Positions 22,661 through 64,000 of a stretch of 64,000 nucleotides of DNA are shown here, in pieces; the first letter of the stretch is position 1; the number at the start of each line of letters is the position of its first letter. Origin of the DNA: Escallonia rubra. Lineage: Eukaryota > Streptophyta > Magnoliopsida > Escalloniales > Escalloniaceae. Location: NCBI GenBank assembly GCA_033065855.1, contig JAVXUO010000408.1, positions 372,001-436,000 of the forward strand, read 5' to 3'. The notes under the pieces were generated by a model. The model was given only the letters and a program-made list of their open reading frames with translations. It did not search any database and was not told the DNA's origin. A program made the translations under genes and the position numbers.

Positions 22661-24872
22661 TTTGGCTTTGTTGGTTGATAATCGTGTATGTTGCTACCGC
22701 TGTTTTATCGGTCTGTTTGTCTGCAATAGTTAACTCTTGCTTCATCTCTTATACGCAAAATTATATATATATACACGTACATAAATCAGTGAAAAAGAAA
22801 TTGGCACGAAGAATATATTTTGGTACTATATCAGTCACGGACGTTGGGTTGGAATATTAAGCTTTTTGTTCAAAGCATGTCTAGAACAAGCATATATAGT
22901 GAAGTACCTGATAACCCTAAGGTTGATTTTCAGGAAGAGCCAAAAGCCAAAGCACAGCTCTCTGACAATGGATTTGTATCCCAGCCGCACATTATTTTTG
23001 TACTATCGATCTACCCACGGTCGGAATAATAATATCGTACGTACAAACTTATTGTAAGCTTCTAATTGGGTTCCTTTCCGGACGAATTGGGTCCTTCTGA
23101 GCTGCATGTGTGTACATAAAAGATGTTGAAAGGTGTATCCTTCAGCAGTGAATAATTAGTCACATCTTCAACGTTTGTGTCGATAACTTTAGGGTGGTGC
23201 TTGTTTGAGCAAATACTGTAAAGCAAGGTTCTCTCTAGCAGCATCCATTACAAGAGCTAGCTCTACTTCACTGCCTTACAACTGGTGTGTACCGCTACTC
23301 TTCAGATTCTAAACATGGCATGCCTCCCCTCTCTCTGGTCGGCCACTCTATATAGCATGCATATCTGAGTCTAACACTATACATCGTTTCTACCAGAAGA
23401 AAGAAGGAAATTGTTGTCGTAGTCTCTTACTTGATTTGCAGGGTACATTTTAAACTTCTATCTTTTGGATGAAATAGCCTTCATATCTGGTTCTTTGCTC
23501 CTGGTTGGGTTCATTGTTTATACCATTCACTGCATAGAAATGCATGAAAAAAAAGAAGTGGAGATTAACACTACTTTTCGAGTCACAATCCATTTCATCC
23601 ATGAAAGTTTTCCTAGGTTCTAGTCCCTAAAGAATATTCTAGATATGAAAAGTAACAACAAAATAAAAAGATAAGTTGCTCATCATAGCTATGATTTTCC
23701 CCTTTCTACGTGGTAAGCATCCACCATCTAGAGGATCATGCAACACAAGAGAGGACATATTGTCGCATTCAGATATGTATGAAATGAACAGGTCTGCTCA
23801 ATGGGACCCCCCTTGTTTCTCATTAGACAAACACATCCTCCTGATTAATAATTTTTCATCCTAATCTAGTGGAGATTTTTTTTTCTTTTACCTATTTTAG
23901 ATATTAAAATACAATTATGAACTTGTACCAGAAGACAGCTCCCATGCACCCCCGTGGAGGCTAACTGGCTTTGATGATTGTTTCCTCTGAATCATTTGTA
24001 ATTTTCGGGCCACTTTCAGATCTGTAAGGCCCGCCACTCACCCGTGAAAGGACTTGGGAAGACCACAGTCATCATTTGTTTAGGTGGAATCCGTTAGAAG
24101 AATTCTGGTAGAGGCCAAAACTAACAAAAGGGAACTCCACTTCTCGCATATATAAGAGGGCATTTGTTCCACCTAAGTGTTTCACACTTTCACTATCACC
24201 GTGGACAAGGATAAGACAAGAAAACTTTTTATTTAACTATTTTTTCCATGCACCCTTCTCGTTGCTTCGTACAGTGTATGAGGAAATTTTTTAACGTCAC
24301 GTTAAATCATTTAACATCATGTTAAATCATTTAACTTGCAGAATATCATAATGAGATGTGAGACCCACAAATTGACAGTGATATTATGAGTAACAATACT
24401 GACATGAATGAATTGAAATAAGTAATGGCACCTTAATTCCAATTTCCACCTAGAGGAGAGACCGAGGGGTTCATATAAAATCGCATGAAGACTCGACCAT
24501 TTTTTTTTTTTGGGGACAACCCAGAAGAGATTTCATTTCAACAAAAGCATATAAGTCATCATCCACGACATGCATAACGTAGTTTACTATAATACTGATC
24601 CTAACTAACTATAAGTCACCATTCCGTTGCTAAGTGATACAAATTTTCCGCCGTAAGAAAAAGTTTGTAAACATGCAAAGGATGTGAACTGATCCCTAAC
24701 ATTTATTGACGCAAATGGAAGTGATTAACTTGTTGAAAGTTTTGGTCTTTAACATTAAGACACTGGAGGCCAAGTCAAGTGGGGCTAAAAATTTGAAACT
24801 CATGACACTTCGAAATGTTCTAAAGACCACCTTCAGCTGACTAAAACTTTCAAAGGAAACATGATCAAAATC

Positions 24873-26015
24873 TTATACAGACATCTCCATCAGCTGAAGC
24901 TGAAGCTGTTGAGTCTCGTTGACTACTTTGTCTTTTGCCCTCTCCTCCTCATTCCTCTTCTTCTGCTTAACGTAAATGCCGTACACATAGGAACAAAACC
25001 CCCACTCGCACAGCAGCGTGGACACCACCTTTGCACCTCCAAACTCATCCCCGTACAACAGGACGCCACCCAACACGTTCATGGCCATCAGCGCCGTCAT
25101 ACAGATCCCGCTCGTCAACGACGTCGTGCAGAAGATCATCCCAGCCGTGCCTAGAAAGCATAGCTGCCATGTGACCACGTTAAACCCTACGGTTAACCAG
25201 TAAGCCCTCGGGCCCAGGTCAAACACCCTTGAACTCTCGTTCCTAATCTCCGAAAACCCTCCGTCCCACGCCATCCCTGTGAAGGCCAACGCCGTCGCCG
25301 CCACCTCCATCACCAGCTGCATTTCCACCACCATCGCGTAACAGTACACCTTCCGGTATATCATCTCCATCAAGGGGAGATACAGCGCGAACAGAAGACC
25401 CGCACCAAGCGTGCAAAAGAACCCGATTAAGTACTTGGTGCGGGTCAGGCCCTGCAGGGTGGTGTTTGAGCCACCACCCTGCAGGCCTAGTAAAACAGAA
25501 CTGAGTGTCAGGAGGACGACGCAATTGAGATTAGAAAAAGTGGTTTTCTGTTTAACAATTATAACAGAGAGGATAAGATTGAAGGCGAGTTGGGAGGAAA
25601 GGAGGAGAGAAGAGGTTGAAACAGGGAGATAAGAATTTCCCCAAGAGAAGAGGAGGTTGTTGATGCCTAACAAGAAGCCTACCATCACGGAGAGGAGGAG
25701 GATCTTAGGAGTGAATCGAGAGAAGGGCTTCCTTTGGGTGCATTTGAAGAGGTGGTAAGGGAGGTAAATGGGGAGGAGGAGGAGAGGAAAACCCGCAGAT
25801 TGGACCCATGTAGAGACCCATCTACTGGAACCCTTGTGGTTGAAATAAAATTTGGAGAGGAGACTGGAAGACACTGAACCTAAGAAGAGACACATGTAGT
25901 TGAGCCCTATAAGGATCATGTAACGTTTGTCGCCCACAGATGCTGCTGCTGGCGGTGCTGGTGCTGGTGCTGGTGAGGAGGTGGATTGGGGTGGTAGTGA
26001 AACTGAAACCTCCAT
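24873..26015 (-). CDS. Purine permease (PUP family), intact single-exon gene
   Basis: This encodes 380 residues, the usual length for plant purine permeases, which belong to the drug/metabolite transporter superfamily and move adenine-type bases, cytokinins and related compounds across membranes. The ATG at 26015-26013 is the start; the TTG just before it is not. After a Pro/Ala-rich N-terminus (residues 1-28) about ten hydrophobic segments follow. Family stretches include FYFNHKGSSRWVSTWVQSAG, the PIYLPYHLF region, LGINNLLFSWGNSYLPVSTS, SSQLAFNLILSVIIVKQK, the LPLMEMIYRKV loop and WGFCSYVYGIYVKQKK at the C-terminus. The frame is open with no disruption, unlike the two sister copies. The C-terminal tail is charged and Gln-rich. 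Substrate specificity cannot be read from the sequence. No intron is needed. Confidence 0.93.
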   Translation of the reverse strand: MEVSVSLPPQSTSSPAPAPAPPAAASVGDKRYMILIGLNYMCLFLGSVSSSLLSKFYFNHKGSSRWVSTWVQSAGFPLLLLPIYLPYHLFKCTQRKPFSRFTPKILLLSVMVGFLLGINNLLFSWGNSYLPVSTSSLLLSSQLAFNLILSVIIVKQKTTFSNLNCVVLLTLSSVLLGLQGGGSNTTLQGLTRTKYLIGFFCTLGAGLLFALYLPLMEMIYRKVYCYAMVVEMQLVMEVAATALAFTGMAWDGGFSEIRNESSRVFDLGPRAYWLTVGFNVVTWQLCFLGTAGMIFCTTSLTSGICMTALMAMNVLGGVLLYGDEFGGAKVVSTLLCEWGFCSYVYGIYVKQKKRNEEERAKDKVVNETQQLQLQLMEMSV

Positions 26016-32338: not shown

Positions 32339-34702
32339 TTATATTTGCCCTCTCCTCCTTATTCCTCTTCTGTTGATTAAAGTAGATGCTGTACACATAG
32401 GAAAAAAAACCCCACCCGCACAGTAGTGTGGACACCAAATCCCCTTTACACCTCCAAACTCATCCCCGTTCATCAGGACGCTAACCAACACGTCCATGGC
32501 CATCAGCGCCGTCATATAGATCCTGCTTGTCATCGACGTCGTCCTGCAAAAGATCATCCAGCCGTGCCCAGGAAGAATAGCTACCATGTAACCACGTTAA
32601 ACTACGGTTAACCGGTAAGCCCTCGGGCCTAGTTCAAACACCCTCGAACTCTCGTTCAAGGGATGACCTACGTGGGAACTAGGGGGGGCTAGTGCATCCC
32701 CTGGAATTTTGACAAAAAAAAAAAAAAAAAAATTTTTGGGAAATTGCACCCCATTTCTCGTGACCCCGTTCCCCGAGACCCCGTCCGCTCTGCCTCTCAG
32801 TCTCTCACCTCTGTCTGTCTGTCTCTCTCTTCGTGACCGCCGACCGGTGACTACACTCCGACCGTGAGTCCGTGACAACAGCGACGGCCACTGCCCGAGT
32901 GCCCGAGCACGAGCTGTGACCAGATCTGAATGTCGGATCGTTTCTCGAGCTGCACCTGTGCCACTGACAGTGACCGGCGACGCCGCGACGACCAAGTTGC
33001 CAACGGCTGTGCAGCTGCAGCCTGCAGGTGACGCCGTGACTGACCGACATGCGATAGCGGTCGATCACCGGCGAGCTTCTCTCATTCTCTGCTCTCTCTG
33101 CTGACTGCTGTTACTTCCCATCTTGAGGTAAGCTGCTTCTTTATCTTGAAATTGTAGTTTAATTTCTTGAAATTATCGTTTAATTTCAGTAATTGATTAT
33201 ATAGAAAATTAAAAAATATGTTTGTTTAATTTGCTTGTTAATTCTTAATTGGTAAGCAGAAATTATGCATTGATTATATATATTTATGTTCCCTAATAAA
33301 AATGCTAAACCAAATAATGAATTATGCCTTGATTATATATATTGCAGAAATTATTGGTGATTTGGTAGAAGTTGGAACACCTTAATTATTTGGTTAATTT
33401 GCTTTACTAATTCTTAATTGGCTAATTGCTTTTCTAATTCATAAATTAGTGCATAGATAGTTTATAATTGTGCTGAAATGTGTCGTTGAGCTTGAGTTTG
33501 TTTGGCTATTTAATTTTAAAATTGAAAAGTTGAAAGTGTACTGTTTTGTTGGAAATTGATGTTGTGTTAAGATTGGGAGGTGGAGCTTGAGCTCGGGAGC
33601 GGAGGTTGATCTTGAAATGTGATTTAGTTTTAAAATTGGGAGTTTGATATTGAGCTTGAAATGTACAGTTATTTAACTACGTGAATTTGTGTTGAGAACT
33701 GAGATTTTGAAATTTTTTTCCAATGTGCGTGTGTATGTGTGTTTTTTTTTTTCAGAATGAAAAAGTTTTTTAGAAAGAAAGAAAAATTGGCAGAATCCTC
33801 GCAGTCTAATCAAGATAGTATTATTTTACTAACAAAAAATTTTGGCTATTATTTTATTAACAAAATTGTTTTGATGAATTTGATATAATTTTTGAACCCC
33901 TGAAAAAAAATCCTGATTCCGCCCCTGCTCTCGTTCTTCATCTCTGAAAACCATCCGTCCCAAGCCATCCCTACGAAGGCCAAAGCCGTCGTCGCCACCT
34001 CCATCACACATTGCATTTCCACCATCATCGCGTAACAGTGCACCTTCCTGTATATCATCTCCATCAAGGGGAGATAAAGCGCGAACAGAAGACCGCACCA
34101 ATCATGCAAAAGAACCCGATTAGGTACTTGGTGCGGGTCAGGCCCTGTAGGGTGGTGCTTGAGCCACCATCGTGCAAGCCTAGCAAAATGGAACTGGGTG
34201 TCAGAAGGATGACACAGTTGAGATTAGAAAAAGTGATTTTCTGTTTAACAATAATAACGGAGAGGAAAAGATTGAAGGCGAGTTGGGAGGAAAGGAGGAG
34301 AGAAGAGGTTGAAACAAGGAGATAGGAATTTCCCCAAAAGAAAAGGAGGTTTTTGATGCCTAACAAGAAGCCTACCGTCACAGAGAGTAGGAGGATCTTA
34401 GGAGTGAATGGAGAGAAGGGTTTTCTTTGGGTGCATTTAAAGAGGTGGTAAGGGAGGTAAATAGGGCAGAGGAGGAGAGGAAAGCCCACAGATTGGACCC
34501 ATGTAGAGACCTGCCTGCAGGAACCCGTGTGGTTGAAATAAAATTTGGAGAACAGACTGGAAGACACAGAACCTAAGAAGAGACGCATGTAGTTGAGCCC
34601 TATAAGGATCATGTAACTTCTGTCGCCCATAGCTGCTGCTGGTGGTGGTGCTGGTGCTGATGGGGTGGTGGATTGGAGTGGTAGTGAAACTGAAACCTCC
34701 AT
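32339..34702 (-). pseudogene. PUP pseudogene, interrupted by a hAT element
   Basis: The ATG at 34702 opens a frame nearly identical in layout to the intact PUP gene up to about residue 200. A 1-base deletion at about 34093 then shifts it, and the match continues in another frame (LLFALYLPLMEMIYRKV) to about 33936. A 1,271-bp hAT element follows, after which the rest resumes at 32656 (SSRVFELGPRAYRLTV). Two further small deletions (near 32612 and 32565) break the C-terminal part. The last codons abut the SINE. Several independent lesions show the copy is dead. Confidence 0.92.
32657..33927. mobile_element. hAT-like element inside the PUP pseudogene, 1,271 bp
   Basis: 8-bp target duplication CTCTCGTT at 32649-32656 and 33928-33935. 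The ends are CAAGGGATGACCTACGTGGG and, reversed, CAGGGGCGGAATCAGG, imperfect versions of one terminus. The same 8 bp occurs once at the matching codon in the intact PUP gene (25234-25241) and in the third copy (63859-63866), which are natural empty sites. The left half is GC-rich and the right half AT-rich with polyA/T tracts; no transposase is present. Confidence 0.85.
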
Positions 34703-35989
34703 CAGGTTAAAGTGGGGATGGGGGGTTGAAGGGGCAGAGGCTAAGTATAATGGATGGTGCTAATCTACATTAAATATAGTTGAGGCCGAAGGAAGGGTTT
34801 TAGATTGGGTTTAATAAAATGGTGGGGTCTGTTAACCTCTTTCGGTAGATTAGAGAGGTCACCTGAGCATCCAATGATTTTGAACAATCTTAAAAAACTT
34901 TGAAAAAAGTGTTTTGTGGGTTCAGTTTTGATAGATAGATAGATGTTCATGAGCACAGCATGCACACACATGATAAGAGTACAGTGCGCGCACAGTGAGG
35001 ATGAATGAATGGATGGATGATCAAAGGGAAGGTGTAAGGAGATGTGAGTTAAAAGTTAATGAATAAGCTAATTAATATGGACCACCCTCTGTCTACAGTC
35101 CACACTATTACGAGAGAAGGATGAATTAGGAAAGAGAGAGGAAGATTGAGAAGAAAAGAGAGAAAAAGTAGACACGTTGGAACAATGGCATTTGGTTGGA
35201 TTTGGTGTTAAGATGAAGAGGGAGAGGGTACAGATGGAAAGTAGCTCTATGGTTTGAAACGACTGCATGCTTTGACTGTTTGGCTGCATCGACGTCTTCT
35301 ATTGCTTGCTATGACCTCTTCACTTTTAGGCTTCAGCACTCAATGCCTCCTCGGCTATCATAGTGACGTAGAGTGACGTGCGGTATGGCCTCGAGCTTCG
35401 TGCCTTGGCCTTGGGCCTCAGGTTTGACATGGACTGGTTTCTGTGTTGTTGCAGTTGGTCTGACGTGGGGGGCAGCTTTCTGGTCACTAGACTAGATTGA
35501 GTTTGTTTGGACGTTTTATCTGTTTTCTGTTCTTTATTGAAAAAAGAAAAAAAAATGGAAGATATAGATCAAAAAAGAAAAGAAAATAGTAGTTCTTTTT
35601 ATTTTATTTTTTTAATTTAATCTGTTGTCCAATTATCTTACTTTATTCGGGGTTACCCATCGGATTGAGCTGTCATCCGATTTTAGCTTTGTATTGTTCT
35701 GCAATCCCTTAGGTTAGGTCATATGCATATGGACTTATTCTGTAATCCTTGAGGTTAGGTCATGTAATCCCTGGTTTTCTAGAGATGAGAAAAATTGGGA
35801 AAAAACTCTCTAAGGGTCTCTTTTATACTTGAAAGAATATATCCGTTGAAAAGTAGTTAAAGGGTTAACACAAAGATTGTTTAAAAGAAATAATTCGAAT
35901 AAATGTTAAAGATCATTCAGAGGAATTTCATTCAAGAATGGTTAAGTCATCTCTGAAGAATTCGATCGAATGAATGCATGATTGAAATT

Positions 35990-39359: not shown

Positions 39360-42012
39360 CTAGCTAAGATTACACATTCCTAAGCGGCGGCAGAGGGAAT
39401 AAAAACTTGCTTCAGCTAAGGGTTCTGTAAAGATGTCTGCAAGCTGATCTCCCAAGCCTACTTTCTTGAGTTCTATCAATCGTTTCTGAACATTGTCTCT
39501 AAGAAAGTGGTAACGGATATCGACGTGCTTCGTGCGAGAGTGCTAAAAAGGATTTTTACTAATATCGATGGCATTACTACTGTTGCACATGATAGGAATA
39601 TTATTTAAAGAAACACCCAAATCCCGTAAGGTGTGATGCATCCAAAGAACTTGAGCACAAAAATTACCGGCTGCAACATATTTCGCTTCGACGGTAGACA
39701 GCCGCCACAAATGTTTGTTTCTTACTATGCCTAGACACAAGTGATTCTCCAAGGAATTGACAAGTACCACTGGTACTTTTATGATCAACTAGACATCTTG
39801 CGTAATTGAAATCATAAAACTCGACTAAATCAAAAGAATAGTTGCGCGGATACCAAAGTCCCAAAATTGTAATCTTGGACAAGTATTTAAATATGCGTTT
39901 GACTGCTGTAATATGGGATACTTTAGGGCAAGCTTGGAAATGGGCACATACATACGCTAAACATGACATCAGGCCTTGAAGCCGTAAGATATAACGAACT
40001 ACCAATCATGTCACGATAAAGTTTGTGATCAACATCTTTACCATTTCCATCTTTAACAAGATTGACGCGAGGAGAGATAGGAGTACCTCTAGGTTTAGCA
40101 TTAGCCATACCAAACCTTTTCAAAAGCTCACGTATGTACTTTGATTGATTTATGAAGATTCCTTCTTTTGATTGCTTGATTTGAAGGCCGAGGAAGAACG
40201 TGAATTCTCCCATCATATTCATCTCAAATTTCCTGCACATATTCTCACAAAACTCTTGGCATAGATCGTCTTTAGTGGCTCCAAAAATGATATCATCAAC
40301 GTAGATTTAGACAACAAGAATATGCGAATTTTTAGATTTGGTAAAGAGAGTGATATCAACTTTGCCACGAGAGAATCCATGATTAGTGAGAAAGTTGCTG
40401 AAACGATCGTACCAAACTCGAGGAGCTTGTTTCAGACCATACAAAGCCTTTTTCAATTTGAAAACATGATTGGGGTGTTTTTCATTTTCAAAACTGGGAG
40501 GTTCTTTAACAAAATCTTCCTCTTGAATTATCCCATTCAAGAAGGAACTTTTCACGTCCATTTGATAAAGTTTAAAATTCATATGACATGAAAATGCCAA
40601 AAAACATTTGGATAGCTTCAAGTCGAGCAACTGGGGCAAAGGTTTCATCAAAATCAGCTCCTCCAACTTGATTATATCCTTGGGCTACTAATCTAGCCTT
40701 GTTTCTAACAATATGGCCATCTTCATCAAGTTTGTTTTGAAAAACCCACTTGGTGCCGATAACTTTTTATTGAACTGGAGGCGGGACTAGAGTCCAAAGC
40801 TTGCTTTTTTCAAATTGATTTAAATCTTCTTGCATGGCAAAGATCCACCCTTCATATTTGAGAGCCTCAAGAATACTTTTAGGTTCAATTTGAGATAGAA
40901 AAGAAAAATCGACACTTGAACGATTTACAGAAGATCAAGTAGTTACCCCATGGTCAACATTACCAATTACTTGCTCCCTTGGGTGGTTAGAGTAGTATCT
41001 CTAGCTCCTGGGAAGAGGTTGAGTTTCAGTATTTGCATTTTCAGATGAATTTGAGTTGTCCCATTCATTTGTTGAAATATCTAATTTATTGAAGCTGAGG
41101 GGAAGATTCTCGTTGTCATCATTTACATGCTTGCTTGGATTTTCAATATTAGTTTTTTCAAATACAACATGCATTGATTCTTCAATAGCAAGAGTCCTAC
41201 GATTATAAACTTCATATGGTCTATTCTTCATGGAATAGCCAAAAAAGACACCCTCGTCAGATTTTGCATCAAACTTACCCAAGTTCTCACGATTATTCAA
41301 AGTAAAACATTTGCAACAAAAAAACTTTGAAGTAATCGATTTTTGATTTTCGATTAGAGAAAAGGTCGTAAGGAGTTTTGTCAAGAATGGGTCTAATGAG
41401 AACCCTGTTCAACACGTAACAAGAAGTGCTGACAGCTTCGGCCCAAAAATATTTTGACAAAGTGTTTTCGTGAAGCATTGTTCTAGCCATCTCTTGAAGA
41501 GTACGATTCTTTGTCTCTATTACTATCCCATTTTGTTGGGGAGTTCGAGGAGCAGAAAATTCATGAGTAATGCCATTTTGATCACAAAAGGGAATAAATT
41601 TTTTTTCAAAGTTGCCGCCATGATCACTTCGGATTTGCACAAGTTTCATTTTCATTTTCATTTTCAAGAAGCTTTATGAGGTTGAAGAATTCTTCAAACG
41701 CTTCATCCTTATGAGTTAAAAATAAAACCCAGGTGTATCTAGAAAAATCATCAACAATGACGAAAGCATAAAAAATTTCACCAAGGCTAGCATGTCTCGT
41801 AGGACCAAAAAGATCTAAATGAAGAAGATGAAGAGGACGGGATGTGAAAACAATATTTTTGGCATGAAAAGAGGTTTTTGATTGTTTGCCACATTGACAG
41901 GCATCACAAACCTTATCCTTGACAAATCTCAACTTTGGTATGCCTCTAACAAGTTCTTTCGAGAGTAATTTCTTGATTATGTCCATATGCACATGACCTA
42001 ATCTACGATGCC
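39360..42012 (-). pseudogene. SIRE-like Copia pol (pre-integrase, integrase, RT, RNase H)
   Basis: Order on the minus strand: WHRRLGH...CDACQCGKQ zinc-binding pre-integrase motif (42012-41880), integrase with LLHLDLFGP, FVIVDDFSRYTWVLF and SDHGGNF then TPQQNG (41830-41530), RT with YQMDVKSSFLNG, ALYGLKQAPRVWYDRF and YVDDIIFG (40600-40270), GEFTFFLGLQIKQS (about 40200), RNase H with DHKSTSGTCQFLG and VEAKYVAAG (39790-39660), and the end RRLGMCNLS-stop at 39360. At least five frameshifts or stops, for example a stop just before YVDD and shifts near 41300, 40990, 40650 and 39790. It is a dead copy but every domain from pre-integrase onward is traceable. The N-terminal gag half is absent. Confidence 0.9.
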
Positions 42013-43660
42013 ACAAATACTGTAAAGCAAGGTTCTCTCTAGCAGCACACGTTATAAGAGCTCTACTTCATTGCCTTACAACTGGTACCGCTACTCTTCA
42101 GATTCTAAATGGAAGGCTCCCTTTCTCTCTTGTCGGCCACTTTAAATAACATGGATATGAGTGAGTCTAACGTTATACATGGTTTCTACCAGAAGAAAGA
42201 AAGAAATTTTTGTCGTAATCTCTTACCTGATTTCCAGATGTTATGATCCTAGTGCGGCCCTAGCTTTGGTTGTTAAAATTTATGTTGAATTTTGGCATAC
42301 TATCAAGATTCTTAATTAATTCAACAACTAATAATGCACAACGATCTAGTCATTACAAGATCCGAGGGTTCGTCATAGAAAACCTTATATCGAACATTTA
42401 TAGAGTGTTCGTCACAATGGGACAATTTGAACGACGACTCCATGTCTTCTAGGTCACAATGATTTTTATGTCATAGATTTGTTCACATTTTAAATTTCTA
42501 TCTTCCAGATGAATTAGTCTGTCATATCTGATTGGAAGGTTTGTCTAAGCAATACATATAAGTTCTTCTTTGCTCCCAGTTGGGTTCATTTTTTATTCGA
42601 TTCACTGTATAGAAATGCATGAACAAAAAAAAAAAAAAAAAGTGGAGAGTAACACTACTTTTTATGTCACAATCCATTTCATCCATGAAAGTTTTCCTAA
42701 GTTCTAATCCCTAAAGATTATTCCAGCTATGACAAGTAACAACAAAATAAAAAGACACGTTGCTCATTGCAACACAAGATATGACATATTGTCGCATTCA
42801 GAGATGTCTGAAAAGAATAGGTATGCTCAATGCGACCCATTGTCTCTTATTGGACAAACACTTCTTTCTGATTAATAATTTTTCATCTTAATCAAGTGGA
42901 GATTTTTTTTTGATCTTCTTTTACCTCTTTTATTAGATATTAAAATACAATTACGAACTTGTACTAGAAGACATCTCCCATCCACACCCATGGAGGCTAA
43001 CTGGCTCTGATGATTGTTTCCTTTGGATCATTTGTAATTTTCAGGCCACTTTCAGATCTGTTAGGCCCGCTACTTACCCTTAAAAGGACTTGGGAAGGCC
43101 ATAGCCAACAAAACCATGTAAAGGAATTCTCGAAAAAGAACATGAGATACGCAAACAAAGCAATCACATTCCTTGTAAGAGCCTAGCTCGGTCATCATTT
43201 GTTTCAATTGCATGGGTGGAATCTGTCAGAAGAGTGGAAGAGGCTAAAACTAACAAAAGGGAACTCCACTTTTCGCATATATAAGAGGACATTTGTTCTA
43301 GCTAGGTGTTTCACACCTTCACCTTCATCATGAAGAAGGACAAGACAAGAAGACTTTTTATTTAACTATTTGTTTCCATGCTCCTTTCTCGTTTCGTACG
43401 ATGTATGAGGAAATTTTTAACATCGTGTTAAATCATTCAACTTGAAAAATATCATAATGAGAGGTGAGACCCACAAATTGACAGTGATATTATAAGTAAC
43501 AATACTTACGCGAATGAATTGAAATAAGTAATGACACCTTAATTCCAATTTTTCACTTAGAGGAGAGAGTGAGGGGTTCATATAAAATCACATGAAGACT
43601 CACGTTTTTTCTTTGGAAAAGGCGGAAGAGATTTCATTTTAAGAAAAGTACATAAGTCAT

Positions 43661-46820: not shown

Positions 46821-48908
46821 GTTGCTATTTGCCTTTGCTTTGAACAACCTACAATCACAATTTAGGTCTAACTTTTGGTACCCACATTTTCTTGGGCCCA
46901 TAAGTGTTAGTCTTAGCAACATTAAGAAACTATTTAACAACTCACATTTTCTTTACACCTCCAACATAAATAATTCTACAAGGATAATAACTAGTCGTAT
47001 GCCATTTCTTGTTGTACCAACCACAATGTGTAAATGATGTGCAATAGTTCTTTGGTTGTCTTGGAGGAACATTTAACCTAGTTTGTTGTTTAAAAAATTT
47101 AGGAGGCAAGGTGAAAGGATCTAATCCAACATTGCCTTTGTTTAGGCCAACTCTTTAGTGTCCAAGCATGACATCCAAGTTATTTTTACCATCGACAAAT
47201 TTTTCAAGGCATCTTTTCAAATCACAAATCTTAAGCTTTAAAATTTCTTTTTTTTTTTTGGTGCTAAAATCGAAGTATTACAAGAGATTTGTTTTGTGCT
47301 AGGAATTCTCACAATCAATTCAACCAAATCATTATTCACATGCTGTACATATAAATGGCTAGATATACATTCATTATTGGCATGCAACTCATTATTTTCA
47401 CTTTTTAAGTCATCTAGCTCTTTTGAAATCGCATGCACTTATTTTTTTCAAAGCCCAATTTTTCTTGGCTAATTTCATGAATTTTTCATATAAAAGAACA
47501 CAAGCATCACAAATATCATCATTGGAACAATTGCTATCACTATCACTATTACTATATGAAGAATTTACCTCATCATCTTTTTGAGCCATGAAGCAGATAT
47601 TAGCATCTCTATTATCGAAATGACCACCTTCATCTCCACTTGAGTCATAAGCACTACAAATGATGGCTTTGATTGATGTCTTTATGGAGTGCTTCTTTCT
47701 AGACTCTTTCTTCCTCTTATTCTCCCATGCGGTAGTCTCTATACTTGAATCATTCTTGCTCTTGTGTGAGTTTCAAACTTCCTTAATTTTGAGAAACTCA
47801 TTATATTCCTTTGCAAGTATGTCCATCTCCTTGTTATTCAAGTCTTCTTCATCTTCAATTGAAGATTGATCCATAATTGATGAAGCTTTAAGAGCAATGT
47901 ACTTCTTCTTCTTTGGAACTTTTTGCCCGGATGATTCGATTTGCATTTCATAGGTCGTCAAGGAGCAAATTAATTCATCAAACGGGAAGGTATTAAGATC
48001 ATTTGATTCTTGAAGTGCGGTAATTTTTTCACCCCATTCTCTAGGTAATGACCTAATTACCTTTCTCACAAGATCACCGTTAGAGAAATCTTTTCCTAAT
48101 TGTTTTAAAGTGATGCCAAGAAAAGTGGGTTCGTACTTACGTGGAGGTGCCACAAAGGCTGTAGTCTGTGTCAGCTTCCAAGTATTCAAAGTGAGAGACA
48201 GTGAGGGCGGAGTAAGGGCAGAGAGCAAGGCTTCCCAGACAGGCCGTGAGGAGTGGCAGTGCTGCGAAGGCAAGGCTGAGACGAACCGGGCCGGCAGTCA
48301 ACAGTCTAAGTCAGGGTCCGATGTTACGGTCCAAAGTTATGTCCAATTTTGTGTTTCTCTTCCTAGGATCCAAGAGCTCTCAAATTTTAGAGTGAGAAAA
48401 TGATTTTGTGAGAATGAAGAAGAAGTCCTCTTTTTGAGTCATAAAGTTCACTATTTATAGGAAATAATGTGCTTATGTCATAAAGTGCCACATGTCGTCT
48501 CTTGGCAGTGACACATCACCAGGGGGTCCCAAAACACCGGTTCTCCGTTGGACTGCCGGTTCCTAAATTCGCGTTGCCTGCCTCGCACAGCGTCGCTCTA
48601 CCTATTTGAGAAGACTGACCACACCATGACCGCATGATCAGAGTAAGCCCGTTGCTCCAGCCACCGGTCCAAGCCCTTACTGAATCCCACGACGTGCGTC
48701 AAGAGACACGCAGAGAACCTGACGGCAGTGAGGGTTGCCCCTGTAGCCAACTACCAGGTGAACTAGGCGCGATGCCCTCTGAGGACCTGCTCCCATCCCG
48801 GAGTGACCCGTGGGTCATTGCCCTGGTGTTGTCGACGATCAATAATAACATGAGTGGACATGCTCGCAGCACAGTACTCAGAGTCCGCTGCGAGGGGTCC
48901 CCGTGCCG

Positions 48909-49352
48909 GAGCCCCCCGTGATTGTGACGGCGATGGCTTTAAGGTTGTGAGCCCATCCCGGTACGAGGGCCGAAGCCCCCCTGTGATTGAGACGGCGATG
49001 GCTATAAGGTTGTGAACCCATCCCGGTACGAGGGCCGAAGCCCCTCTGTGATTGAGACGGCGATGGCTATAAGGTTGTGAGCCCATCCTAGTGCGAGGGC
49101 CAAAGCCCCCCTGTGATTGAGACGGCAATGGCTATAAGATTGTGAGCCCATCCCGGTACGAGGACCGAAGCCCCCCTGTGATTAAGACGACGATGGCTAA
49201 AAAGTTGTGAGCCCATCCCAGTACGAGAGGCGAAGCCCTTCTGTGATTGAGACGGCAATAGCTATAAGGTTATAAGCCCATCTCGGTACAAGGGCCGAAG
49301 CCCCCCTGTGATTGTGACGGCGATGGCTTTAAGGTTGTGAGCCCATCCCGGA
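48909..49352 (+). repeat. Exact-period 65-bp tandem array, about 7 copies
   Basis: GCCCATCCCG-type anchors start at 48951, 49016, 49081, 49146, 49211, 49276 and 49341, an unbroken 65-bp spacing with substitutions but no indels. Each unit holds TACGAGGGCCGAAGCCCCCC and GTGATTGAGACGGCGATGGC. Low divergence suggests recent expansion. Confidence 0.92.
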
Positions 49353-49384
49353 AGCATGTAATATGATTGTGGCGCCTGGGCGCG

Positions 49385-49745
49385 GTGCCTATAGCACGAG
49401 ACAATACCTGGTGCCGGGGCACATGTTATGAAAGTGGCGCACGGACGCGGCGACGAACGTCGCAGAGACAATACCTGATGCCGTGGGCACATATCATGGA
49501 AGTGGCGCACGAGCGCGGCGACGAGCGTCGCGGAGATAACACTTGGTGCCGGAGCACGTGTTATGAAAGTGGTGCGACGACGAACGTCGCGGAGCAATAC
49601 TTGGTGCTGGGGGTACGCATCATGGAAGTGGCGCACGAGCGCGGTAACGAATGTTACAGAGACAATACTTGGTGCCGGGGCACGTATCATGAGAATGGCG
49701 CATGGGCGCGGCGACGAATGTCGTGGTGACGGCGCACGGGCGCGC
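49385..49745 (+). repeat. Second tandem array, about 66-bp units
   Basis: Five to six copies of a unit with ACAATACTTGGTGCCGGGGC, then CACG.(T)ATCATGAAAGTGGCG and GCGGCGACGAACGTCG. One copy is shortened (about 49560-49600). It directly follows the 65-bp array but is unrelated in sequence. Confidence 0.85.
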
Positions 49746-57422: not shown

Positions 57423-57431
57423 CTTTAACAT
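57423..57431. repeat. Target site duplication of the Mutator element, left
   Basis: CTTTAACAT, repeated at 63460-63468. The same 9 bp occurs once in the empty paralogous site at 24747-24755. Confidence 0.93.
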
Positions 57432-57954
57432 GAATAAAATTTCGCTGCTGACCAGGTAGCAGCGAGTTCCTGCTACCCTGCCACGTGGCAGCTTTTGAAT
57501 GGTCCACGTGTGTGTCCGCAATCTTCATCCCAAGCGAGCAGATGGCTTTAGATGACGGCTTGTTGCCGTTAAACGGCAAGTCCTTACATTATCAGCTGAT
57601 TATAGGTGATCTCTCTCCCCCTCTCTCTCCATCTATCCCCCGTTTACCTATCTCTCTCAGCGAACATTCTGTGTAGATGCTGTACACATAATAACACAGG
57701 ATTGTGTGCAGCAACTTCTTCTCCGGGGGCGCGAGCTGTTCGACGGGATTGTTCACTTGTTCGACAGGATTTGCGTCGCAGAAGTACTTGGAAGGGAGGC
57801 CGCGGCCGTGGTCAGGCAGATTGCGAGCGGCGCTGCACAGGGCCAATATTCTTCAGTCGTGGTATTGAAGCTTGAGAACTGAAGCTGCAAACGGCTTGGT
57901 TTAATCACCTAAAATCAAACGGCTAGTTCACAGGGACTTGAACCTGAGAACTGC
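57432..57954 (+). repeat. Left TIR of the Mutator element
   Basis: 523 bp, inverted match of 62893-63459. It contains the palindrome-like CCACGTGGCAG (57481-57491), a CACGTG-bearing CCACGTGTGTG (57503-57513) and, at its inner edge, a kinase catalytic-loop sequence (57929-57954). E-box/G-box-like CACGTG motifs might act in the transposase promoter, which is an inference. Confidence 0.93.
57923..57954 (+). pseudogene. Kinase catalytic-loop fragment at the inner edge of the left TIR
   Basis: Plus strand: CTAGTTCACAGGGACTTG (LVHRDL) then AA and CCTGAGAACTGC (PENC). The lysine codon between L and P has lost one base, as in the right TIR. The match ends exactly where TIR similarity ends. Confidence 0.82.
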
Positions 57955-59001
57955 CTGAGAACAGCCGTGGTGACTTTCATTGTTGTTGCTAACGAAGGTA
58001 CTCTCTCTCTCTCTCTCTCTCTCATGCATGGAATCTGATACATCATTCATACTTCATACGTCCGAAGCACAAACCGTCAATCTATCAGACAAAAAACTCA
58101 TCTGATAGCTTCAATAACTTGCATGGAACATGCTTTTGGTTTTACTTGTCATAATGTGAACATTCAAATATCTAATGCTGCCTCTTTCTTTATTTTTGAA
58201 GGTTCACTCTTCATTGCAAGCACGATCACATCCTGTACCTCACGTTTACCACTTATAGTTGTTACGAGTGGCTGAGAAATAAAAAGTACACCTTAGGGGT
58301 TGCCTGGTTCAGTACCACAAAAGAGGTGTTCCCTCATACGTAGGTTATTAATTTTATTGGTGCAACATCATATTTTGTATACACCATAAGTTGTAACAGA
58401 TTGTGCATCAATTTGCAAACTAGTTTTTTTTAATGTTTCAAACCATTCATCTTTTACTGCTTTGGTTGCACTTGGCTAATACGTGGGCAGTGTCTTTCAA
58501 TAAGCCAAGTAGATTTGTTACCTTTGATGTAAAAGAAGTTTGTATTAAAGAGCCAGTTTTTAGTTTTTAACAAGGGGCGTATGTGATCTGATACGTAAAT
58601 CCATGACCGGTTTTCATCCACATTTAGTAGTAGATTGTTGTATGTTTTCGTTAGACTATACTACCTAATAGACCTATTATTTGAATATTGTTCTCTGCTT
58701 TTGTTTCCTGAGTGTGTTATTTCATGCACTTAGGGTTTTATAAAAGTAAGGGACGATACATTAGACCCACCATTTGACTGCAAAATGTGTGTGAAATGAG
58801 TATAGATGTGCTTAGAAATTGAAAAGGGATCCTATGGAAACTGGAAAGGTAGCAGCCAACATGAAGTAATTTGACATTTTTGAACTTTTATACATTCACA
58901 AGCTATTTTTTGTTCGATTACATTGATGACAAGAACTTAGCTTGACTATAGGAATACCTTTTCACCTAGAGAAGTTACCACTATTTTTTCCCTCACTTAC
59001 A
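57955..59001 (+). other. Leader region of the transposase gene
   Basis: No coding frame. A probable 5' intron donor, GAAG/GTACTC, lies at about 57993, followed by a (CT)n tract (57998-58022); a possible acceptor, GACTATAG, ends at 58950. This would place the first ATG of the transposase in the second exon. The intron is an inference from splice-like sites only. Confidence 0.45.
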
Positions 59002-61157
59002 ATGAATTCACGCAATATGGACCAACAAGCTGATGTCAACGAGCAAGAGGTAGATGATGTATGCATTTTGCAGTCAAGACAATTTAATGTGCATGGAGGG
59101 AATGTTCATGAAGTACCAAAACTTGGAATGGAATTTGATTCGGAACAACATGCTTTTGATTATTATAGTGAGTATGCTCATCAGGTTGGTTTTAGTGTAA
59201 GAAAGCAACACGTTAAGAAAAGGGATGGAATCGTGACAAGGAGAACTTTATGTTGTTCAAAACAAGGTGAACGAGGTATTGATAAACGACGAGTAAATGT
59301 GGTGTATCATCGTCCCATTTCAAGAGTAGGTTGTAAAGCACATATGAGCATTCTACTCCAAAAGGATACAAAATTTAAGGTGATATCTTTCAATGCAGAG
59401 CATAATCATGCTTTTGCCCCATCGCCTGCAAAGCACATGTTAAGGTAAAAAAGAAGACTTTCATTTAGTCAAACAGCTTTGGCAACCGATGCTATTAAGG
59501 TAGGAGTATCAGTTAAAAAGACTTTTCGTATACTAAGTCGGCAAGCTGGAGGTCATGAACACGTTGGTTTTTTAGATGTGGATTATGCAAATTATCTCTA
59601 TCGAACACGAGCGACCGAAATGCAAAAAGGAGATGCTGGTGCTCTGTTAAAGTATTTTCAGAAGATGAAGTTACACGACCCCTCTTTTTCTTATTTGATA
59701 CAGCTTGATGAGAATGACCTAATAACAAATATTTTTTGGGCAGATTCAAGGTCAGTTGTAGATTATAAGCATTTTGGAGATGTTGTATGCTTTGACACAA
59801 CCTATCGAACTAATGATTATGGTCGTCCGTTTGCTCCATTTCTTGGTGTTAATCATCATAAACAAACGGTTATCTTTGGTGCTGCACTGCTTTATGATGA
59901 AACTGCAGAGTCATTCAAGTGGTTATTTAGGACATTTCTTGGTGCAATGTCTCAAAAACAACCAAAGACAATTCTCACTGATCAATCCGCTGCCATGGCA
60001 AATGCAATTGCAGAAGTGTTCCATGAATGCAATCATCATTTATGTGTGTGGCACATCTATCAGAATGTGGCCAAACATTTAAGTCACGTATTTCATGCTT
60101 CTAAGGACTTTGCATCTGATCTTAGTTCTTGTGTATATGATTATGAGGATGAAGATGAGTGGATAGTTACATGGAATCAAATGAACAAGACGTACTCTCT
60201 CCAAGACAATGATTGGTTGAAAGGAATCTTTGAGTTAAGAGAGAAATGGGCTATGGTTTATGGTCGACATATGTTTACTGCGCGAGTCTATGAATCATGT
60301 CTTAAAGCAATATTTAGATCCAAGGCATAATTTTTTTGCGATTCTTTGAGCAGTATGACTTGTTATTGCAAGATCGACGATATACAGAGTTAAAATCAGA
60401 GTTCAAAATGAGGCAAACTAGTCCAGTGCCAATAGCTAATGTTGAGATGCTAAGACATGCGGTTGAGGTATATACTCCTGAGATGTTCAATATGTTCCAA
60501 TATGAGTATACAAAGGCTTGGGATTGCAGTATTCATAAAGTTAGCAAGTCTGAAAACGTTTCGGATTACAAAGTTGTTTTTGGCGGAAAGGGAAGAGAAC
60601 ATCTTGTAAAATTTGAAGCCGAGACAACTACTGTGCAATGTAGTTGTATGAAAGTTAACTTTGTTGGCATTTTATGTCGTCATGCTTTGAAAGTTCTTGA
60701 TAAGAAAAACATCAAGAGGATACCACCTCAATATATATTGAAAAGATGGACAAAAGATACAAAGGATGCAATAGTAAGTGATTACCGTGGTGCTCAGGTT
60801 CAAGGCAAATCTCAAGAATCTATTGGAAAGCGGTATTCCTATTTAAGTCATGATTTTCAAGAACTGGTCACACTTGCAGCAGAGAACGAAGATATGTACA
60901 TATATGCGCATCAGTACTTAAGTAAATTGCTCAAGGATTTGGAAGAAATGAAGAAAACTTATTGCTGTAGTACTTTGGATCCAGATACTAATACACAAGA
61001 TGATCTTCTTAAAAATGTGCCCCAACTAAATGATGGTGTCGTGTCTCAATGCCCCCGGGGGATAAAAAGAAAAGCTACAGTTGGACGTCCACGTAAAAGG
61101 TTTAAGGATCTACTTGAGCAATCCAGAAGGCACAAGTCACAAGTAAAAGCTACACAA
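59002..61157 (+). pseudogene. FAR1/FHY3-like MULE transposase, main exon, two disruptions
   Basis: From ATG 59002: a FAR1 DNA-binding domain (about residues 50-145: FDSEQHAFDYYSEYAHQVGF, CCSKQGE, GCKA, then HNH) of the WRKY-GCM1 zinc-finger type. Then the MULE transposase domain, with DTTY at residue 265, TDQ at about 327 and CVWH at 348-351 as the first catalytic positions and zinc-like motif, then a SWIM zinc finger CSC.....CRH at about 60639-60692, and an AT-hook-like GRPRKR near the end (about 61084). It is broken by one in-frame TAA (59446-59448) and one frameshift in the T run at 60325-60337. Otherwise domains are full length. The open frame upstream of 59002 starts at a TTG and is probably not translated. 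FAR1/FHY3 transcription factors derive from such transposases, but the TIRs and TSD show this is the transposon. Confidence 0.93.
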
Positions 61158-61895
61158 GTACTATTCTGTCTCTAGGTTCCCAAAAAATGGTTATACATTT
61201 TTATCTTTCCATAGTCATATGGTACCGTCCAAACATTTTTCTATATGATGTGATGTTTTGTAGGGTACCTCCAATAATGGACGAGGCTCGCAACAAAAAG
61301 GGCGCAAAATTGGACGACAAAATGAACATCAGGAAGAGCATTCTGAGAAGGAAGATGAGGTGATTTTTGATTCATTTGTCACCGTATTCTCACAATCTGA
61401 TTTATAGTGTAGATAAGACTGATTCAACATTTTTGTTTTAGATACTACTGCTGTATACAGTAAAGTAAATGATGAGCATGACATTGTTGATGATACATTG
61501 CCCCTTCAAAGTCAGGTAACTACAAATGTTGCCTAAGGTCAATTGTTATATTGTCGTTCTGATAGCCAAATTAGACCATCTTTTTATTCAATCTTTTCTT
61601 GGTGAGTGTTGTTTTTACAGTACCCTCTTATCTCAAGGGAATCACAAGAGCGTTCAAATAATTACGTTATACCTTCCATCAATATTAATTCTGGTCCAAA
61701 GATATGGGCATGTCATCATATGTCCTTCACTGAGTTGCTTCAGGTAAATATGTGATATACAAGTACTTGTCTTTAAACCATTGTTGTAACTTTGCTTTGC
61801 TTTTCTAGGCATCTTCAATTTGTTATGACACTTTGCAACAACATAACCAAGAGGACAACGACTCTGACAAACAGGACGGAGAAGATGGCGGCTAG
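61158..61895 (+). pseudogene. 3' exons of the MULE transposase
   Basis: After a donor at 61158 (CAA/GTACT) the frame can be followed through GT-AG junctions: 61264-61359 (GTSNNGRGSQQKGRKIGRQN start), about 61442-61515 (ends LPLQSQ), 61621-61743 (YPLISRESQERSNN start, ends FTELLQ) and 61809-61895 (ASSICYDTLQQHNQEDN start, ends with TAG at 61893). The last two introns keep phase 0. The junction between the second and third exon is off by one base, so either a small indel or a different splice site applies there. The tail is hydrophilic and acidic without a known domain. Confidence 0.65.
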
Positions 61896-62629
61896 AAGAA
61901 AACAAAAAATGATGGGTTGATCCATTCGTTTAGATCACTTGTATTCCTCCATTGAAACAATGTTTACGTTATTACTTCTGTTTTTACTCCTCCAAAGGGT
62001 TTGAAAAAAAATTAGATTCATCAGTGCTAGTGACCATATGCTTGTTGTGGGTAATTGATTGGCGAAACGCCAAAGATGACTTTGCAAACGTTTGTATTTG
62101 CACATTACCGTATTTAATTATTAAGCGAATTTGATATAAGTTTATCAGAAGTTTGTTGATATCAATAGAAGTTCCTCAGAAGTTTGTTGATATTGTTAAA
62201 TATCATGTACATAGATGTGCCACTACATGCTGCAAGCATAGCATGGATGCACGCTTTCCTGGGCCCTTCTTAGGTGGTAGTAATAAAAAAAGTGACGAAA
62301 ATACAATGAAGTTGCCTCTTGACCAGGTGTATGAACGAAAGGAATACTTGATCATAAAACAGCAGAGTATCCTTCATCCCGAGTATCCTTGGTACTACCA
62401 CTTGGGTACATTTTGCATGCAACGAGTCTTTGCAACCATAATTTGCAAACATCACCACCACCTCCAAAATCCCAATACCATAAATGAATTATACTTTGCT
62501 GATCGGTAATTTGCTCCGACAACCGCGAGTAAACAAGAACATTTGGTAAGCAGCTTTGAGAAACATAAAAGGAGATTAGAGAAGTATAATGACTGGCACA
62601 TTTTCTTTAGCTCTAGACAAATAGAAAAT
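61896..62629. other. 3' region of the Mutator element
   Basis: AT-rich sequence between the transposase stop and the rearranged TIR-tip copy. A 118-codon + frame at 62153-62509 has no recognisable motif. Transposase polyadenylation probably occurs here ('aataat' and 'aataaa'-like signals such as at 62631). Confidence 0.5.
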
Positions 62630-62667
62630 GAATAAAATTTCGCTGCTGGTGGAGGAGTTCAATGATC
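62630..62667 (+). repeat. Displaced TIR tip fused to a kinase sequence
   Basis: 62630-62648 repeats the terminal 19 bp GAATAAAATTTCGCTGCTG in the left-end orientation. It is joined to GTGGAGGAGTTCAATGATC (62649-62667), which is the inverted copy of kinase sequence at 62813-62831. Confidence 0.85.
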
Positions 62668-62811
62668 CATCACTAATACAAGTGACTACATCTTCCGTTT
62701 CTCATAACATCCATCACAAACTACCACTGGAAAAGCTGAAGGAAAATGAAAAATATGGGAACCGAAAGGGTTGCTGCTGAAGAAAACAAATATACCCAGA
62801 TGGGAATATTT

Positions 62812-62926
62812 GTGATCATTGAACTCCTCCACCCAGCTCAGTCCAAAGTCCATAATCTTCAGGAGAGAGTCCTTGCTTTGGCTAAAAAACAAGCAGTTCT
62901 CAGGTTCAAGTCCTTGTGAACTAGCC
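62812..62926 (-). pseudogene. Captured Ser/Thr protein kinase fragment (catalytic loop to DFG)
   Basis: On the minus strand, RLVHKDL is followed after a missing base by PENCLFFSQSKDSLLKI and MDFGLSWVEEFND. This is kinase subdomain VIb (HRDLKPEN-type, Ser/Thr signature) with correct spacing to the DFG motif of subdomain VII (62842-62850). The fragment has no upstream or downstream kinase subdomains. The HRDL..PENC part is inside the right TIR and is repeated in the left TIR; the DFG part lies just inside it. A second kinase codon change (HRD to HKD) is seen here but not in the left copy. The donor gene cannot be named, although the 'MDFGLS.VEEF' wording recalls a plant CDPK-related kinase group. 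Confidence 0.85.
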
Positions 62927-63459
62927 GTTTGATTTTAGGTGATTAAACCAAGCCGTTTGCAGCTTCAGTTCTCAAGCTTCAATACCACGACTGAAGAATA
63001 CTGGCCCTGTGCAGCGCCGCTCGCAATCTGCCTGACCACGGCCGCGGCCTCCCTTCCGAGTACTTCTGCGACACAAATCCTGTCGAACAAGTGAACAATC
63101 CCGTCGAACAGCTCGCGCCCCCATAGAACAAGTTGCTGCACACAATCCTGTGTTATTATGTGTGCAGCATCTACACAGATTGTTCGCTGAGAGAGATAGC
63201 TAAATGGGGGATAGATGGAGAGAGAGAGGGAGAGAGGGGGAGAGAGAGAGAGAGAGAGACCTACTAGTTAACAGCTTGTTAATCACCTACAATCAGCTGA
63301 TAATGTAGGGACTTGCCGTTTAACAGCAACAAGCCGTCATCTAAAGCCATCTGCTCGCGTGGGATGAAGATTGCGGACACACACGTGGACCATTCAGAAG
63401 CTGCCACGTGGCAGGTAGCAGGAACTCGCTGCTACCTGGTCAGCAGCGAAATTTTATTC
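62893..63459 (-). repeat. Right TIR of the Mutator element
   Basis: 567 bp, inverted match of 57432-57954. It is longer because of an extra (GA)n tract and a 'ctactagttaacagcttgttaatca' stretch (63220-63300). Confidence 0.93.
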
Positions 63460-63468
63460 CTTTAACAT
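63460..63468. repeat. Target site duplication of the Mutator element, right
   Basis: CTTTAACAT, equal to 57423-57431. It lies 32 bp from the stop codon of the third PUP copy. Confidence 0.93.
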
Positions 63469-63500: not shown

Positions 63501-64000
63501 CTAGCGACTAAAACTTTTCAAGGAAACATGCTGTTGACTCTCGTTGACTACTTTGTCTTTTGCCCTCTCCTCCCCATTCCTCTTCTTTTGGTTAACGTAA
63601 ATGCCATACACATAGGAACAGAACCCCCACCAGCACAGCAGCGTGGACACCACTTTTGCACCTCCAAACTCGTCCCCATACACCAGGACACCTCCCAACA
63701 CGTTCATGGCCATTAGCACCGTCATGCAGATCCCGCTCGTCAACGACGTCGTGCAGAAGATCATCCCAGCCGTGCCCAGAAAGCACAGCTGCCATGTGAA
63801 CACGTTAAACCCAACGGTTAACCAGTAAGCCCTCGGGCCCAGGTCAAACACCCACGAACTCTCGTTCCTCATCTCCGCAAACCCTCTGTCCCATGCCATC
63901 CCTGCAAAGGCCAACGCCGTCGCTGCCACCTCCATCACCAGCTGCATTTCCACCACCATCGCGTAACAGTACACCTTCCTGTATATCATCTCCATCAAGG
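63501..64000 (-). CDS. Purine permease, third copy (C-terminal part, cut by the window edge)
   Basis: The frame runs open from the window edge to a stop at 63503-63501. It encodes the C-terminal 165 or so residues of a PUP transporter: MEMIYRKVYCYAMVVEMQLV, WQLCFLGTAGMIFCTTSLTS, AMNVLGGVLVYGDEFGGAKV and WGFCSYVYGIYVNQKKRN. It is closer to the intact copy than to the pseudogene and has no disruption in the visible part. The C-terminal end differs: the Gln/Leu-rich tail of the intact copy is replaced by QQHVSLKSFSR after a small deletion. The Mutator element begins 32 bp after the stop codon, so the transcript's 3' end must lie in the transposon. Whether the N-terminal half is intact lies outside the window. 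Confidence 0.88.
   Translation of the reverse strand, partial: LMEMIYRKVYCYAMVVEMQLVMEVAATALAFAGMAWDRGFAEMRNESSWVFDLGPRAYWLTVGFNVFTWQLCFLGTAGMIFCTTSLTSGICMTVLMAMNVLGGVLVYGDEFGGAKVVSTLLCWWGFCSYVYGIYVNQKKRNGEERAKDKVVNESQQHVSLKSFSR

Follow-up and report, generated by a model that had tools for sequence, protein, structure and literature searches.

The window analysed here, 64,000 nt of DNA from the asterid Escallonia rubra (contig JAVXUO010000408.1), harbors a FAR1-type Mutator-like element (MULE) of 6,028 bp, located at 57432-63459, in which part of a host kinase gene lies within both terminal inverted repeats (TIRs). This kinase sequence is real and bigger than first described: most of the inner ~230 nt of either repeat derives from exon 1 of the gene for CCaMK, the calcium/calmodulin kinase that plays a role in root symbiosis. 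A preliminary description of the region, made from the sequence alone, had put the element at 57923-62926, which lies inside its actual bounds but is too narrow, and had recognised an HRDL-PENC motif. The motif is real, but it marks just the inner edge of kinase sequence that reaches ~230 nt outward (57726-57957 in the left arm).

At the DNA level, the match to CCaMK exon 1 covers 57726-57957 in the left arm and 62820-63089 in the right arm. The tract consists of two overlapping pieces, A (donor positions 489-632) and B (604-636 in the left arm, 604-706 in the right), with a 44-nt filler between them (Table 1). Left piece A contains a short internal duplication and, at its inner end, a degenerate VHRDLKPENC copy, and the apparent 75-nt 'insertion' in the tract is in fact this degenerate second HRDL-PENC copy together with the filler. 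The 44 nt at 57866-57909, in which piece A ends and 28 nt of filler follow, are 84% like the left end of the related locus L031. As the preliminary description had noticed, HRDL-(K)-PENC has lost the same one base in both arms (GACTTGAACCTGAGAAC, against GACTTGAAGCCTGAGAAC in the donor), and the right arm runs on past HRDL-PENC to DFG. Beyond that, the right-arm kinase reaches VEEFND (KIMDFGLSWVEEFND). A third kinase copy, inverted and truncated, is found at 62630-62667, where a repeat tip is followed by a kinase end. Two proposed extensions of the kinase sequence were rejected: outward ('VCEDTSGVHL'), as the donor DNA match begins only at donor position ~489, and past VEEFND ('PI/GIF'), as the same native repeat sequence is present in kinase-less relatives.

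A search for the donor in the assembly to which the window belongs (566 Mb, 3,222 contigs; 40 of 199 candidates scored) found a CCaMK-like place on contig C1031, whose exon 1 encodes residues 1-234 of the Escallonia rubra protein P0002 (RJ640_006496) with 100% identity. This host gene (L021/L048) has an exon 1 of 702 bp and more exon matches across ~7.4 kb. The tract is identical to donor exon 1 at 92% of positions over 103 nt, or 84% with gaps over 136 nt, and each window arm shares with it an exact match of, at most, 37 nt. Common 21-mers start at 41 positions in the element and at none in the other 57,972 nt of the window, and the GC content of the donor segment is 57%, versus 41% for the window. 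The donor kinase that the preliminary description suggested looking for is therefore present in the same genome; an initial assignment to a PEPKR2-type kinase proved wrong, since both protein and DNA matches point to CCaMK.

Protein comparisons lead to the same gene. When the 120 CCaMK proteins listed among 389 matches were used, unedited, as queries against the raw window DNA, all 120 matched the right arm (E <= 1.24e-11) and, outside the arms, none had a match at E <= 0.01; the best E value with 120 reversed sequences was 0.022. The left arm by itself was matched by 77/120 at E <= 0.01 and by 0/120 at E <= 1e-5, and a Pfam search gave E = 0.11 for the short fragment of the right arm by itself and nothing for the outer fragment. 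Such weak left-arm and Pfam scores, when taken alone, are all that favors chance or a generic likeness of kinase motifs, an explanation with a negligible probability in view of the long DNA identity to a single gene of the same genome, the 37-nt exact match and the lack of shared 21-mers elsewhere in the window. The protein test is not wholly independent, because the query that retrieved the 120 proteins was itself read from the window; the DNA match to the same-genome gene is independent of that query.

The bounds of the element are defined by a 9-bp target-site duplication, CTTTAACAT, a length within the 7-12 bp known for MULEs (PMC9168764) and one that is expected of the TIR type. The 9-mer is seen only three times in the window, at 24747, 57423 and 63460. 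The first of these represents an empty target site next to a purine-permease paralogue, and when the flanks of the element are joined, they match 24714-24761 at 44 of 48 aligned positions. Purine permease gene copies are found at 24876-26009, 34064-34759 and 63504-63998 (the last by Pfam, the others from repeats and open reading frames), and ~70 bp separate the end of the kinase-bearing MULE from the start of the strong match of the last one. With 526-570 bp, the repeats are a little longer than the 100-500 bp published for TIR-type MULEs (PMC3903597). The arms are ~96% complementary: 228 of 237 aligned columns are identical over 57432-57669, in addition to 46 gapped ones, and over 57670-57957, which aligns without gaps, 279 of 288 are. 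No sibling repeats of the element were found elsewhere in the 64-kb window.

The interior of the element holds a transposase region in which Pfam recognises, all above cut-offs, FAR1 (4.6e-23), MULE (3.9e-31) and SWIM (0.00027) domains. A TAA stop lies in frame at 59446-59448, the frame is lost near 60330, and the longest stop-free run is 293 aa, so that the window copy lacks the uninterrupted frame of an autonomous MULE. The autonomous type named in the preliminary description is thus not borne out by the window copy itself, although three siblings, L022-L024, have an open transposase frame of 726 aa from ATG. In L022, the FAR1 and MULE domains score above cut-off and SWIM just below it (19.1 versus 19.6 bits). 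Judged from their sequences, these open-frame kinase-bearing siblings look able to move themselves.

Relatives were loci fetched from the same assembly, and their counts are therefore minimum values (L032 and L043 are one locus). At least seven elements, including that of the window, form a subfamily whose members all have a transposase region, carry kinase at either end and contain the internal copy of the tip; the flanks of the seven show no mutual similarity, the end of L027 being arbitrary in this comparison, since its left arm is truncated. Target duplications of 9/9 or 8/9 lie at the tips of four members (window, L023, L024 and L026). L022 has tips without target duplication, the right tip of L025 is truncated, and the outer left repeat of L027 is absent from a further 4.1 kb (L047). 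The transposase regions of L022-L024 are 99.7-99.8% identical. A further, more distant transposase-bearing locus, L031, is 96% identical over aligned sites and carries rearranged kinase pieces at both ends, which are 95.9% alike across 241 bp. L028, L029 and L030 are small elements with kinase at a single end, their main aligned blocks being 88-95% alike. The right end of L043 starts with the outer repeat and kinase piece A, and ends with kinase piece B and the spacer, a native repeat-interior sequence. The two kinase pieces are separated by a Copia-like insertion of 4.7 kb (L043:2522-7270), whose end repeats of 278 bp are identical.

Other relatives carry no kinase. L033, L034 and L035 are transposase-bearing and kinase-less, and no kinase was found in L036-L042 and L044-L046, with just one end located in L041, L042, L044 and L045. 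The repeats of L033 can be aligned with each other along 538/573 bp (88.8%), spacer included. A comparison of sibling TIRs, which the preliminary description had also suggested, thus finds kinase in both ends of six more elements and none in L033-L035, and the outcome that it had named as fatal to its reading, no donor and all siblings alike, did not occur.

The capture of a host exon follows from the donor, the site in both arms, the shared lesions, the kinase-less relatives and the separate insertions, and the earlier claim that a captured host kinase became inverted-repeat sequence holds in view of the CCaMK exon in both repeat interiors and its absence from transposase-bearing relatives. 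The one-base loss in HRDL-(K)-PENC is present in 14/14 subfamily arms; the L043 copy is without it. Of the 20 kinase-bearing arms that were compared, 19 have losses of 3 nt and 1 nt with respect to the donor in the CAGAAG...GGGAGGCC stretch, and none has the donor form; the remaining arm, L027_5, is without this stretch. A functional donor would hardly have carried the 1-nt loss, which disrupts the reading frame, and this points to a single capture as the probable source of the kinase tract. At positions where the CCaMK of E. rubra differs from that of Escallonia herrerae, some fragments have the herrerae-like residue (K before ALHR in L028, S before QSKD in L022), a hint that the capture is older than those changes. 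In the transposase tree, the seven subfamily members and L031 split from L033, L034 and L035 (100/100, midpoint root). When the tree is built from the outer 230 nt of the repeats, without L025_3 and L027_5, L031 joins L028-L030 (99/98) and the subfamily forms a group of its own (98/98); L043 and the relatives that lack kinase branch off between these groups in unresolved order. This tree allows a single origin of the tract, without demonstrating one.

The proposed model, to which a probability of about 0.82 is given, is that of capture of a host exon into a repeat, rearrangement, spread to both arms and later transposition as repeat sequence. The ancestor would have been a FAR1-type MULE whose terminal repeats were long, like those of kinase-less L033, and which captured ~220 bp of CCaMK exon 1 (residues ~118-191). 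Within the repeat, the captured piece would have had the outer ~237 bp on one side and the native spacer on the other. Entry would most likely have occurred through template switching in gap repair, because the overlapping exon pieces, the filler and the inverted tip-plus-kinase scrap at 62630-62667 can be read as scars of this kind; gap filling and FoSTeST have been proposed for animal Pack-TIR elements (PMC8277862). The captured tract would then have been rearranged into the two overlapping pieces and the filler, and would have reached the second repeat most likely by copying of one arm onto the other, displacing the native interior at each end. In the right window arm, kinase stands in place of the native stretch ~237-~367 and the spacer comes next; the left-arm kinase adjoins native subterminal sequence directly, and hence the spacer is gone from the left arm. 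Afterwards, the tract would have moved as ordinary terminal-repeat sequence in repeated transposition. We infer template switching, copying between arms and a right-to-left direction, and are less sure of whether the second arm was reached by conversion, inverted duplication or fusion with a small element. The preliminary suggestion of capture at one end followed by copying fits the longer right tract and the one-ended L028-L030, although its order and direction are unproven.

It could be argued that the right end arose when a small kinase carrier nearby was fused to the element; 62630-63459 would then be the remnant of that carrier, and aberrant excision would have produced the hybrid ends. 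The 19-nt left-oriented internal tip is joined to an inverted kinase end in 7/7 members, small kinase carriers do exist (L028-L030), and a review (PMC13317346) describes hybrid formation of such a type for Pack-CACTA. Fusion is nevertheless unlikely, as the internal tip has no flanking target duplication and the spacer is missing from all of L028-L030. Moreover, L043, which the outer-repeat tree does not place within the subfamily, has kinase, spacer and native-like sequence without an internal tip (none in its 8,001 fetched bases with <= 3 mismatches allowed); the right-end kinase block therefore need not accompany the internal tip, and the fusion explanation is weakened. Nested insertion of an 829-bp right-end unit was rejected, again for want of a target duplication at the internal tip. 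Improbable too is that the whole kinase-bearing end was duplicated inverted, in a foldback-type manner, instead of being converted onto an existing repeat. The indels and filler that both arms have in common would agree with it, and Galileo lengthens its repeats by inverted recruitment of adjoining sequence (PMC3573991), but the arms adjoin different native interiors. The right arm borders the spacer and the left one subterminal sequence, a difference that would be expected had the native repeats been there beforehand.

Several observations weigh against capture followed by copying between arms. The window arms do group together (94/99) and are 96.4% identical, compared to <= 95.2% with any other full-length arm; however, this grouping falls below the star threshold of treekit, its bootstrap had not settled, and the short L027_5 (124 columns, 23% of those in the arm tree in which it was kept) is 97.6% like WIN_5, nearer than WIN_3. 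In the counts of private sites, from which L027_5 was dropped, 10 sites private to both window arms lie in 57432-57715 and 1 in the kinase part, which argues only weakly for homogenisation of the kinase part itself, and this part has 7 sites private to one window arm. The 5' arms of L022-L024 group together, so that no copying from arm to arm is visible since their split. The transposase tree has a midpoint root only, and that of the outer 230 nt does not unite the kinase-bearing elements. Piece A shows 0/92 substitutions with respect to the donor in L022-L026, and piece B shows 5 of 92-102 in the same loci, 7/102 in the window and 12/100 in L027; pieces A and B hence diverge unequally from the donor, and two captures are possible. 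Finally, the one-ended kinase of L028-L030 could be the result of loss.

It has also been considered that the kinase tract is kept for a putative benefit to the element, for example transposase binding or promoter activity, given that kinase is present at both ends in 8/8 transposase-bearing kinase carriers with two fetched ends, three of them with an open frame. This is an improbable explanation, as the tract is frame-broken, and rearranged in L031, and common descent alone is enough to explain its persistence.

Table 1. Positions in the window of the element, its repeats, the captured CCaMK pieces and the target sites.
Feature	Position	Strand	Remarks
Whole Mutator-like element	57432..63459	+	6,028 bp
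Left (transposase-5') terminal inverted repeat	57432..57957	+	
Right (transposase-3') terminal inverted repeat	62890..63459	-	
Left target-site duplication, CTTTAACAT	57423..57431	.	same 9 bp on other side
Right target-site duplication, CTTTAACAT	63460..63468	.	same 9 bp on other side
Empty target site, single CTTTAACAT	24747..24755	.	paralogous purine-permease flank
CCaMK piece A, left arm	57726..57881	+	donor 489-515 + 500-632
44-nt filler between kinase pieces, both arms	57882..57925	+	
CCaMK piece B, left arm, HRDL-PENC with one-base loss	57926..57957	+	donor 604-636
CCaMK piece B, right arm, HKDL-(K)-PENC...DFG...VEEFND	62820..62921	-	donor 604-706; 92.2% DNA identity
CCaMK piece A, right arm	62966..63089	-	donor 500-632
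Native outer portion of right repeat, 228 nt	63232..63459	-	
Spacer (native repeat-interior sequence)	62669..62813	-	near both ends in kinase-less L033, L034, L035
Subterminal sequence	62300..62629	+	common to 7/7 subfamily members; other six 95-97% identical
Internal 19-nt copy of outer tip, left-end orientation	62630..62648	+	in 7/7 subfamily members
Inverted 20-nt kinase-end copy (VEEFND), joined to internal tip	62648..62667	+	
Transposase region, FAR1 + MULE + SWIM domains	59002..61175	+	broken

Other repetitive sequences are found in the window. A repeat-ended element at 803-2682 has 324-nt arms that are 96% complementary and the 9-bp TAAGTAAAT on both sides; it may be a Pack-MULE, and its minus-strand open reading frame at 1915-2454 is one that we take to be a MATE transporter fragment. 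Pieces of a Copia-type retrotransposon were recognised from translated open reading frames at 39923-42067 (minus strand), and tandem repeats with a 65-bp period, giving 7 overlapping 195-nt matches, occupy 48847-49431.

Plants commonly direct small RNAs at transposon repeat sequences, and multi-copy exact matches to a symbiosis gene now lie within sequences of this targeted type. In this multi-copy family, with exact matches to CCaMK exon 1 as long as 37 nt, the kinase half of the repeats might be more than a passenger: small RNAs derived from the repeats might act in trans on CCaMK, tying transposon silencing to the capacity for root symbiosis, a speculation with very little likelihood. Of broader significance is that a host exon has become terminal-repeat sequence in elements that, from their open frames, are seemingly able to self-mobilise. 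The entry of host genes into MULEs has been called not yet understood (PMC3310237), and here a single genome contains the donor, kinase-less relatives, one-ended small elements and an open-frame kinase-bearing subfamily, so that the steps can be ordered and tested.

Among known systems, the Pack-MULEs of rice, maize, Arabidopsis and tomato are similar in their MULE ends with host gene fragments, target duplication and GC-richer donor, and the present element does carry a host gene fragment with an identifiable parent. However, Pack-MULEs are described (PMC4858842) as non-autonomous and with the captured sequence internal, whereas here a transposase region is present and the fragment lies inside both repeats, so that the element does not fit that definition. 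Acquired sequence integrated in lengthened MULE repeats is already in print, in a remark of Ferguson and Jiang 2012 (PMC3310237), citing Hanada 2009 and Lisch 2002; that remark comes after a sentence about non-autonomous MULEs, in contrast to the donor, kinase-less relatives and open-frame siblings found here in one genome. The preliminary description had called an exon turned into TIR sequence in a transposase-bearing element unusual, which is too broad given that remark, but a literature search that left subscription sources mostly outside found no transposase-bearing MULE reported to have a host exon in its two repeats. The apparently new point is that several features come together in a single genome: elements with a transposase region and a host exon in either repeat, their presence at several sites, the donor gene, and relatives that lack the kinase.

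The tomato type 6 MULEs of Ferguson and Jiang 2012 resemble the element in their transposase-like interior and in an extra internal TIR without target duplication. Their extra TIRs share >= 100 bp, though, while the internal copy here consists of 19 nt of tip and 20 nt of kinase end, falling short of the multiple-TIR class, which is defined by an internal TIR of >= 100 bp without its own target duplication. KIU (Kaonashi) MULEs, as presented in a review (PMC13317346), also combine a host-derived domain, captured Ulp1, with other coding genes of the MULE, but they are non-TIR MULEs with the coding domain inside, and the fragments described here are non-coding and lie in the repeats. Galileo, a Drosophila element of the P superfamily, likewise recruits internal sequence into its repeats; according to PMC3573991, this sequence is its own and the longest repeats never occur in nearly complete copies, whereas the repeats of the Escallonia rubra elements have recruited an exon of the host.

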